Shown here: positions 31,649 to 34,809 of the stretch, in pieces
Layout of the letters: the number at the start of each line of letters is the position of its first letter
How positions within the stretch are numbered: the first letter of the stretch is position 1
IMG/VR virus record: IMGVR_UViG_3300045125_000107
Coordinates: 1 to 56,680 of that record
Length of the DNA: 56,680 nt
Source: a virus
Direction: 5' to 3' (one strand)
Position numbers and translations under genes: made by a program
Notes under the pieces: model-generated
Told to the model about the DNA's origin: nothing
What the model saw: only the letters and a program-made list of their open reading frames with translations
Databases searched by the model: none

Positions 31649-32097
31649 TCAGTCCGTGGACGAGGCCGTCTGCACGTACTGGATCGTCACACGCACCTGA
31701 CCCGCCGTGGGCTGGCCCACCGAGGTGACCGTCGCCACGACCGGGCCGTTTGAGCCGGTGTTGGCCATAGCCGCAAGCTGCGCCGCCGTGAACGTCGCGG
31801 CAATGCGACCCGTCGCTGCCTTGACGTTCACGCCGCTGGCGTACTGCGTGCCGCCCGAGGCGGTGCCACCGACAGCGTGGCCGAGGTCGCGCTGTTGTAC
31901 GCCGTGAGCGCATCGCAGAAGATATTGGTGATCTGCGAGTTGAACGGCAGGTTGATGGTGCCGTTCTGCACCAGCGTGGCGTCGAAGTTGATCAGCACGG
32001 TCTGCGTCAGCACGACGTTTCCGAGGTTGGGGCCGCCGGGGTAGCCTGCCGGGCGGTCGCCCGTGACGAGCGGGCCGCTGAAGGTAGTCTGGGACAT
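31649..32097 (-). CDS. capsid decoration-like structural protein, about 148 aa
   Basis: ATG 32097: MSQTTFSGPLVTGDRPAGYP, GNVVLTQTVLINFDATL, NLPFNSQITNIFCDALTAYN, SATSATLSV, then ASGVNVKAATGRIAATFTAA, QLAAMANTGSNGPVVATVTS, RVTIQYVQTASS. One indel near 31860. The NG.I.LP....I..I..D..TA.NSATSATLSVG...YASGV.VK.A.GR pattern is a common phage head protein. Lies downstream of the capsid gene, separated from it by the endonuclease gene. Confidence 0.6.
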
Positions 32098-32164
32098 AAG
32101 GGGAGTTCCTTCGCGAAAGTTGCTGCTATAGCGCGGCGACTTTAGCACGGAGCGGAGTGTTTGG

Positions 32165-33711
32165 CTAGGTACGCCGCCAGACCCAGCGCTTCTTGCCACA
32201 GTCGAACAACCGCATGGCGCCCAGAAGGTAGGTCATGTCGCGTCCGCTCCGGCTATCGCGAACCGGATCGAAGGTCTCAGGCCGCTCTGTGTCACGGATG
32301 CGCGCCGGGATATTTTTGCGCTGCCACGCAGTCTTCGGCAGAAGTCCGGTTTTGGGGTGATAGACCTGATAGTCTGGGCCTGTTTCCTCCTCCAACACAA
32401 AGCCTAGATGCTCGTACATGCGCCCGGTGAAGTACCGGCTATCAGAAAAGGACTTTGCCAGTCTCCGGCTGGTGCTCAGCCATGAAGGCGGAAAACAGCT
32501 TCGATGCCCCGCCGGTAACCGATACGCGTGTGGCATACCTTGTCAGCGTCCACATGCGCTCCGCCGCCGCAGCGCCTCTGTCGTTGGCGCCAAAGGCAAA
32601 GCGCATGCAGGCAACCAACTTGCCCTTGATACCGCAGCCCGTAGGCCTGCCCCCAACCGCCACCTCCCTGCGGGTGGTACTGCTCAAGAAGGCTGTAGCG
32701 CAGCCGGCCCAACTTGGTCTACGGTACAGCGCCGCGCCATGACACGGCCACGCCCCTTGCCAAGGGCGTTGCGGATGAGACGCTTGATGACCGGCTTACG
32801 CTCGAGCCATTCACTCTCGTACACGGTGAGCAGGCGAAAACCCGCCGCCTCGCACATCCGCATTTTCTCCAGATGCCGTTTCCGGGCGAAGGGCTCGTCG
32901 TCCACCTTGCGCGCGGCGTGCCAATACTCGCCGCAATATTCGATGGCCACCTTGGCCTCCGGCACCCATATATCAATTTCCTTCGGCGCGATGAGAACCC
33001 GATTACGCGGTTCCGCTCGGCGAATATCGACACGAAGGTCAGCACTTCCGCCTCGCCCTTCGAGCGGTGGTGCGAGCATTCGGGGCAACCTTGCGCCGCG
33101 TCAGATGCTTGTCGGAACCTGCACAAAGGGTCCGTGCACCGGGCAGACTATCTCAACAGGCTGCTTGCGTCCCTCGTACTGCACGCGGCTGTAATCGTAA
33201 CAGCCGCCATGGATCGCGCGGGCCCTCGCTGACGAACCCCTCAGAGAACTTCGCAATCTTGGCGTTAGCGGTCTTGCGCGCGGAGGCCAGCGTGTCTTTG
33301 CGGTGCCCGCGCTTGGCCGCGCCGCACTGGGGGCAGCCCTTGCCCGCCAAGTGGTTGTTCGGCGTGATGGAAAAATCACCGTGCACGGGCAGGTCACGGT
33401 GAACTTTGTGGCGCTGTTGACATACGCCGCCGCTCGTAGGTGTAGAGGCCCCGGCATGCTTGGCGTTGGCAGCCGCGATGACATCGGCCCGCGAGACCGC
33501 CTTTTGGAGCGGCGCGCAACTTCGCCGCATTGCGGACACCCGCGCCGTCCTCGCGCAGTTGCGCCGGGTACTGGCTGAACTCTCCATGCTGCGCGCACAC
33601 AATGCCGGTCATGCGTTTCAGCGCACCGTGCGTTTTCTGCATTCGAGAAGTCGTAGCGGTCGCGAACTGGTTGGGGAAATTGGCGATAACGTCGTGAAAG
33701 GAAAGCTGCAC
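32165..33711 (-). CDS. free-standing homing endonuclease (zinc repeats + VSR-like nuclease)
   Basis: About 510 aa. GTG 33711 (QLSFHDVIANFPNQFA). N-terminal half: two or three zinc units, e.g. GIVCAQHGEFSQYPAQL, GCPQCG; GKGCPQCGAAKRGH; then HGGCYDYSRVQYEGRKQPVE and IVCPVHGPFVQVP. Central nuclease: KEIDIWVPEAKVAIEYCGEY, KRHLEKMRMCEAAGFRLLTV, YESEWLERKPVIKRLIRN. C-terminal domain: LVACMRFAFGA, MWTLTRYATRVSVTGGASKL, RYFTGRMYEHLGFVLEEETG, YHPKTGLLPKTAWQRKNI. This order matches the phage homing endonucleases with DUF723-like fingers and a VSR/EDxHD-type core. About six indels. Confidence 0.7.
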
Positions 33712-33811: not shown

Positions 33812-33843
33812 AAAAAGGCCCCGAAACGTCTGCTCCGGGGGCC
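33812..33843 (-). terminator. intrinsic terminator after the capsid gene
   Basis: Read on the minus strand: a GGCCCC / GGGGCC stem around a loop of about 15 bases, followed directly by a run of five T (GGGGCCTTTTTG). It lies 38 bases after the capsid stop (33881) and upstream of the homing endonuclease gene, so it would cap high-level capsid transcription and insulate the endonuclease gene. Confidence 0.6.
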
Positions 33844-33880: not shown

Positions 33881-34809
33881 TCAGATGCCCGGCGTACCGT
33901 ACACGCCCGCGCGGATCGGTCCAGCCGAACGCGTAACGTTCGGTCGCCTTGTAGCGCATGCTGTCGGTTTCGAAGTCGCCTTCCATGGACTCTTCTCAAG
34001 GCCGCGACGCATCGCGAGCTTCAGACCTTCCGGCGCATCAGTCTTCACCCACCACGCGGTGGTCGAGGTGATACGCGAGAGGTTGGCCTGACCGCCGGCC
34101 AGCAGGCCCATCGACTTCACGGGGTTGATGTCGTTGTTCAGCGGTGCCGGCACGCAGGACGACTTGAGCAGCACTTCCGCCTGGAAGACGCCGCTCGAGA
34201 CCAACGACGATCTTCTTCGGCGTCGAGGCGGATGCGCTTGCCGTTGTTGTCCACGGCGTTGCGGATCTGGATCAGGAGCTGCTCCAGCGAGGTCTGCGAC
34301 AGGCTTGCGGCCGTGCTGACGAGCTGGTTGCTGAAGGTGCCGTTGACAATCGGGTGGTCGGTGGCGACCAAGCGACACGCCGTCGCCGCCAGTCATACGC
34401 CGCCGTGAACGCACGGTTGAGGATGTTGGCGCCGAGGGTTTCCTTCGGTTTCGATCAGCGACTGCGCGAGGTGGCGCGCGTAGGTCTGACCGATGCGGAT
34501 GTGGTCACCGTCTTCGACGAGCACCTTCGTGAGCGCGAATGCAAGGCCGTAGACCTTGTAGACGTAGCGCTGAATGAAGAGCACGCCACCCGACTGATAG
34601 GTGACCGGCATGCCGTCAGGCAGTTCCGGCGCAGCGCCGAAGCCGTACAGAACGCGGCTCTTCGTGGTAGTTGCGGGGAATGCCCTTGAACTGCTTGGAA
34701 GACCTGCGCCCACTCGTCAGCACGCTGGTCGTAGATGCCGTTGAACTCTTCGTTCAGAATCGGCTCGACGATGGAGCGGAAAGTCAGTACTCCGCATTGG
34801 CATTGCCAT
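33881..34809 (-). CDS. major capsid protein (HK97-fold type), about 309 aa
   Basis: ATG 34809, with AAGGAGGG eight bases upstream, the strongest ribosome site in the window. FRSIVEPILNEEFNGIYDQR, EWAQVF, PVLYGFGAAPELPDGMPVTY, SGGVLFIQRYVYKVYGLAFA, LTKVLVEDGDHIRIGQTYAR, HLAQSLIE, TTAWWVKTDAPEGLKLAMRR and, at the end, GTPGI. This is the capsid family of many podoviruses and siphoviruses with head proteins of about 300 aa, with the RRGLEKSMEGDFETDSMRYK region near the C-terminus (33950-34030). About six indels. Followed by a terminator, consistent with very high expression. Confidence 0.75.

Follow-up and report, generated by a model that had tools for sequence, protein, structure and literature searches.

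Homing endonuclease genes positioned beside essential phage genes are already known, and capsid-proximal endonucleases in general have precedent (PMC10448857). In T4, the free-standing GIY-YIG gene segD lies near terminators, beside the capsid gene, between gene 23 (major capsid) and gene 24, and embedded host promoters favor the retention of free-standing endonucleases in this phage (PMC2988022). The DNA-binding domains of homing endonucleases have also given rise to CapR, a satellite repressor (PMC10448857). Other described systems include I-Bth0305I, in which a VSR-like catalytic core is accompanied by separate DNA-binding domains, and the cyanophage enzyme F-CphI, which carries an Endonuclease VII motif and homes as a free-standing, intronless gene. 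In jumbo phages, Mom domains are fused to restriction-type nucleases, and Iyer et al. (2021) interpret these proteins as one-protein restriction-modification systems (PMC7824862). Finally, the RW cluster was described in 2024 as encoding a homing endonuclease, with its capsid gene reported as not identified (PMC11053796).

Here we examine a gene from a 56,680-base virus record (the window, by which we mean this entire stretch of DNA). It likely encodes an EDxHD-type (VSR-like) homing endonuclease, free-standing and targeted to the 3′ end of the major capsid protein (MCP) gene (Table 1). An initial annotation had already proposed a free-standing homing endonuclease, and this proposal is supported by our data with two refinements: the protein carries a Mom-like domain, and the locus is used by three unrelated classes of endonuclease.

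Table 1. Coordinates of the predicted endonuclease gene, its domains and its flanking elements in the window
Feature	Coordinates	Strand	Remarks
Predicted homing endonuclease gene	32165..33711	-	EDxHD-type, free-standing; GTG at 33711, TAG at 32165; ~15 assembly frameshifts
N-terminal region, three CapR/DUF723 zinc-finger repeats	33105..33711	-	Right boundary approximate; predicted DNA-binding arm
VSR-like/EDxHD nuclease core	32740..33105	-	Boundaries approximate; profile, fold and residue evidence
Mom-like (GNAT-fold) domain	32165..32740	-	Mom-matching residues present in window
MCP gene	33881..34809	-	304 codons, TGA stop 33883-33881; 3′ end is putative homing target
Intrinsic terminator	33819..33840	-	Between MCP and endonuclease genes
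Right-border element CTAGCCA-N14-TGCTAAAGT (extended -10)	32139..32168	-	Promoter-like; overlaps endonuclease gene end
Downstream structural-type gene (MSQTTFSGPL...)	31650..32097	-	Frameshifted; start 32097

The gene comprises 515 codons, close to the approximately 510 codons originally estimated. A frameshift-aware alignment with the intact protein of relative L013 extends from residue 1 to residue 515 at 69% identity (348/504), and exposes 15 frameshifts and zero internal stops in the window gene. This corresponds to 9.7 frameshifts per kb, versus 13 per kb in the MCP gene (12 in 0.93 kb) and 5-17 per kb in other essential genes. Because essential genes are equally dense in frameshifts, we attribute the breaks in the endonuclease gene to assembly noise; decay to a pseudogene is ruled out by this capsid- and neighbor-like density together with the lack of an internal stop. 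The window genes examined carry about 10 frameshifts per kb throughout, as single-base events. The record resembles a long-read assembly that was left unpolished, and therefore gene calls made from it are unreliable.

At the DNA level, the endonuclease gene is 68% similar over 1,164 nt to its counterparts in Caulobacter phages RW, KcrB, RLK and GB2A; for RW, the match has E 8e-101, far above chance. The same protein family is represented by PHROG 559 (‘HNH endonuclease’, E 8e-104) and PHROG 3339 (‘homing endonuclease’, E 3e-76), and WNV48116 of GB2A is a member. No relatives of the endonuclease were found in bacterial genomes. Residence in an intron or intein was rejected because the reading frames on both sides of the gene are complete, and because an Rfam scan of the window and of ten related loci gave no family at the gathering score.

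Zinc-finger repeats, a VSR-like nuclease core and a third conserved domain had been recognized in the initial annotation, and each can be placed on a firmer footing with the aid of intact relatives. For the N-terminal arm, relative P0001 scores 46.7 bits for DUF723 (cut-off 20.9) and 30.4 bits for CapR (cut-off 24.2), and both families also exceed their Pfam cut-offs in L021; the frameshifted fragments of the window reach 18.4 bits for DUF723, which is under the cut-off. Among the clade B loci (L022-L038), this N-terminal DNA-binding part varies by group and the nuclease and Mom-like parts are retained. In L024, L026, L028, L030 and L034, for example, a ‘TGxPCxxGHxxxR...C..C’ module takes the place of the zinc fingers. 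Variation of this type may reflect modular recognition of targets at the same site.

A profile of the nuclease core, built from residues 206-328 of the L021 protein aligned over 35 relatives, matches a single PDB sequence, that of I-Bth0305I (3r3p, E 3.4e-4). A single-sequence PDB search had given only a weak, spurious match to flavivirus envelope proteins, which the profile search resolved. The predicted model of the core (pLDDT 84) also returns 3r3p as the top match in Foldseek, and VIA-align superimposes it on 3r3p with Z 11.3 and an rmsd of 2.2 over 91 residues, on NGO0050 (3hrl) with Z 11.3, and on Vsr (1cw0) with Z 11.0. According to the initial annotation, the assignment would fail if the core had no VSR-like fold similarity; that similarity is present. 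The core of the window protein contains the conserved segments SKGE, KEIDI, IEYCGEYWH, RH..K and YESEW, and residues E222, E247, D249, E260, H267, H282, K285 and E301, which are invariant in all 35 relatives, are present in the window as well. These putative catalytic acidic and histidine positions are defined by the family alignment. Assignment as a Vsr mismatch endonuclease was rejected since the fold is shared but the family sequence score fails, with only one of the 35 members yielding a Pfam Vsr score, and a weak one. Together with the optional occupancy and tree conflict described below, these comparisons place the nuclease in the EDxHD homing family as a new member.

The third domain, left unnamed in the initial annotation, spans residues 329-516 and adopts a GNAT fold in a confident model, with pLDDT values above 90 in most blocks. 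The best Foldseek match is the DNA-modification protein Mom of phage Mu (8bv8, E 2e-5). The VIA superposition on Mom extends over 164 residues and scores Z 13.2, a value tied by ordinary GNAT enzymes (Z 12-14). Profile comparison with Mu Mom yields E 6.5e-4 at a low probability of 28%. The Pfam Mom model (PF25680) matches four of the 35 family members; L044 scores 30.1 against a cut-off of 27.1, L021, L010, L038 and L034 fall below it, and Pfam GNAT exceeds its cut-off in L039. That the Mom cut-off is reached only in relative L044 is a point against our main interpretation, and we use the term ‘Mom-like’ because the window’s own subgroup is under this cut-off. A comparison of the Pfam Mom and Endonuclease VII models with the window DNA gave no match, an outcome that frameshifts and silent controls render uninformative.

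Residues H48, R101, S114, D139 and Y149, which we take to be the important residues of Mom, correspond to H349, R393, S405, D425 and Y434 of the family. Four of these are kept in 35 of 35 members and S405 is kept in 29; all five Mom counterparts occur in the window, where family residue E491 reads G. Values of dN/dS are mostly 0.04-0.2 on the nuclease and Mom-like domains, as is typical of purifying selection.

The upstream neighbor is the MCP gene, and the endonuclease gene is indeed located right after the capsid terminator as first proposed. A frameshift-aware alignment of the window MCP with the RW-cluster protein P0002 yields 261 of 303 identical residues, and P0002 matches Phage_capsid_4 and PHROG head families. 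In RW and GB2A, the capsid gene is the 304-residue gene 5′ of the endonuclease (L001:7666-8580), which has matches to these same families. On the other side, the gene had been described as adjoining a decoration gene. In empty relatives, this structural-type gene comes straight after MCP, and its relative in phage Pag-Yong1 carries the depositor label ‘minor capsid protein’. A PHROG search with intact relatives of the downstream gene gave no match, so the capsid half of the description stands and ‘decoration’ is unconfirmed.

To define the use of this site, we sampled 61 viral relatives for the endonuclease and 80 close relatives for the capsid, the latter chosen by closeness to phage RW. Wherever a relative is at least 44% identical and its upstream sequence is retained, the endonuclease gene is directly 3′ of MCP, and this position is conserved even where the MCP is merely 37-47% identical to that of RW. 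The 80 capsid loci include 3 with the EDxHD gene, 17 with an Endonuclease VII-type zinc-finger gene, 4 with a GIY-YIG gene, 51 that are empty and 5 that are cut by contig ends. When combined and de-duplicated, 92 close capsid loci include 52 empty, 19 EDxHD, 17 EndoVII-type and 4 GIY-YIG loci. The initial annotation had said that recent homing would be unlikely if all relatives carried the gene at this place. They do not: 52 of 92 loci are empty and 21 carry another endonuclease. Every recognized insert at the capsid flank is an endonuclease, of one of three unrelated kinds. It is this repeated use of one capsid flank by three folds that distinguishes the site, and our literature searches returned no account of this hotspot.

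Genes of the EndoVII zinc-finger class lie directly 3′ of MCP in L071, L076, L093-L097, L100, L102, L104, L107, L111, L117-L120 and L139. In L093-like loci, a GGAGGAG ribosome-binding site resides inside the 3′ arm of the terminator hairpin, right before the ATG, an arrangement reminiscent of T4 endonucleases, whose RBS is sequestered in a hairpin. Genes of the GIY-YIG class occupy the same position in L101, L130, L138 and L146, and have their own terminator.

Two loci capture intermediate states. In L126 (6976-8389), an EndoVII-type gene precedes what remains of an EDxHD endonuclease: the zinc-finger region and the final codons persist, the nuclease and Mom-like domains are lost, and an L008-type right border is kept. 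L116 is empty, yet its terminator resembles those of occupied loci. L126 is a fossil of succession at the capsid site. Gain, swap and decay, through which homing genes are expected to pass, are all represented here. The site offers alleles of every kind (empty, occupied, swapped and decayed), and is a clean natural experiment on competition for one position.

The joining of a nuclease to a Mom-like domain permits more than one view of how the protein acts. We tentatively entertain a self-immunizing homing endonuclease, wherein the Mom-like domain would mark the carrier’s own capsid site or genome and thereby spare the intact target beside the gene, and cleavage would fall on unmarked capsid genes in co-infecting phages. 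If this were true, the capsid 3′ end would be a long-term battleground on which three endonuclease classes displace one another. A one-protein restriction-modification weapon, in which the Mom-like domain marks the phage’s own adenines, the REase-like domain attacks many sites in any host or competitor DNA without the mark, and the capsid location is incidental, seems unlikely to us. The jumbo-phage fusions have been read this way (Iyer et al., 2021; PMC7824862), and the conservation of the Mom-like residues would be in keeping with it. However, all relatives that are at least 44% identical occupy one capsid flank, and this flank is also used by two unrelated endonuclease classes in which no Mom domain was detected, a pattern that favors homing to a specific locus; the long zinc-finger arms also suggest a long target. 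Although this capsid-specific location argues for homing, homing and restriction-modification could coexist.

The borders of the inserts carry recurrent features. The MCP gene ends in TAA at 47 of the 52 empty loci versus 3 of the 19 loci with the EDxHD gene (p 5e-9, ignoring shared ancestry), and the same shift away from TAA is seen at EndoVII and GIY-YIG loci. A hairpin and T-run follow MCP at 18/19 EDxHD, 15/17 EndoVII and 4/4 GIY-YIG loci, and at 9/52 empty loci. At the right border, the extended -10-like motif TGCTA[ATC], often preceded by CTAGCCA, is present in 11 of 19 EDxHD and 12 of 17 EndoVII inserts (1.5 and 1.4 expected, respectively) versus 2 of 52 empty loci. These association tests treat the loci as independent; shared ancestry enters through the trees only. 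In the window, this element is directed towards the next structural gene. It was revealed by border-by-border reading; a strict sigma-70 scan of the window found no promoter, and a fixed-motif search for -35 and -10 sequences missed it. We consider the motif a putative outward promoter. The window cassette has the layout of occupied relatives (TGA stop, terminator, CTAGCCA...TGCTAAAGT), and therefore the insert would stop transcription of the capsid gene and, should the motif be a promoter, start it anew for the next gene.

A further observation concerns the leader located 5′ of ‘MASTTFSGPV’-type genes, which is conserved over ~70-120 nt (e.g. L013, L018, L009, L142 and L103). It contains apparent pairings, for example CAGCTCGTCAG...CTGACGAGC and GATGCACA...TTGTGCAT beside the ribosome-binding site, which suggest a structured or pseudoknotted regulatory RNA. 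This leader has no Rfam match at the gathering score.

On the capsid DNA tree, a minimum of 12 gains or losses is required for the EDxHD gene (branches with good support force 11), 10 changes for the EndoVII type, and 23 for all four states together. The endonuclease clades {L006,L007,L021} and {L009,L013,L017,L018}, with supports of 100/99 and 97/99, are rejected by the capsid data (p-AU 7e-5 and 2e-4, respectively), and the capsid-like grouping {L006,L008,L012,L032} is rejected by the endonuclease data (6e-4). The capsid of the window is nearest to those of empty loci L077 and L069, and its endonuclease groups with the endonucleases of other capsid lineages. Moreover, distant phages share 44-56% identity in the endonuclease and 37-47% in MCP. 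The capsid and endonuclease trees thus conflict significantly, and therefore the gene moves between lineages, as the suggestion of a mobile element at the capsid locus had implied.

These trees and borders also bear on the idea that the gene is a passive passenger at a module boundary, tolerated between structural operons and swapped by homologous recombination of its flanks with no endonuclease-driven homing. Insertion would be cheap because the gene sits behind a terminator, the capsid and endonuclease trees partly agree (L008/L012/L032 and L013/L017/L018), and different inserts have similar borders; indeed, that ordinary recombination at a module boundary could yield similar inserts is a point against the homing interpretation. 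We nevertheless find passive carriage quite improbable, given that the recognized inserts are all endonucleases of three unrelated folds, that the endonuclease is better conserved than MCP between distant phages, and that the tree conflicts are strong. A domesticated capsid regulator, whose CapR-type fingers bind the capsid region and tune expression as does the satellite repressor, would fit the above-cut-off CapR homology and the descent of CapR from homing endonucleases (PMC10448857), but is very hard to reconcile with invariant nuclease and Mom-like residues under strong purifying selection and with the absence of the gene from most relatives.

In the homing mechanism that we propose, the zinc-finger arm would recognize a long, conserved target close to the capsid stop codon, and cleavage by the VSR-like core would fall on insert-free capsid genes, such as the capsid locus of competing phages. 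Recombination repair templated by the occupied genome would then install the cassette in place of the stop-codon region of the capsid gene. A terminator and the endonuclease gene would thereby arrive, and the next structural gene would gain an outward promoter. The target position in this scheme is inferred from the insert borders only. The content of the cassette and its movement between capsid lineages are documented by comparison of sequences. The Mom-like domain probably modifies DNA, and would most simply protect the genome or target of the carrier. In mixed infections, the capsid 3′ ends of competitors would be replaced by the allele of the carrier.

As far as our searches show, an EDxHD and Mom-like fusion at a capsid flank that is used by three unrelated endonuclease classes is undescribed. 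The fusion unites the homing and restriction-modification interpretations, and allows self-protection to be tested directly in a case of intronless homing. The cultured representatives are Caulobacter phages such as RW, GB2A, RLK and KcrB, for which the capsid gene was formerly unidentified.

The window gene can be compared with several known systems. T4 segD shares the free-standing location at a capsid gene, but has another nuclease fold, is antisense and is uncharacterized, whereas the window gene is sense-oriented and moves among lineages. F-CphI (PF02945) serves as a model for the second class of endonuclease at this site; it targets psbA, is blocked by an intron, and bears no relation to the window gene. 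The catalytic core of I-Bth0305I is related in both sequence and fold, but the PDB entry of this protein names it a mobile intron protein whereas the window gene is free-standing, and the window protein differs by its CapR/DUF723 fingers and its extra Mom-like domain. The jumbo-phage fusions likewise combine a Mom-type domain with a restriction-fold nuclease and share the logic of modification and protection. They are read as general restriction-modification systems (PMC7824862), whereas the zinc-finger arm and fixed capsid flank of the window gene point to homing. The RW/GB2A cluster carries the endonuclease at the identical capsid-flank position, an adjacency that, like the domain content of the protein, is absent from the available portion of its description (PMC11053796).
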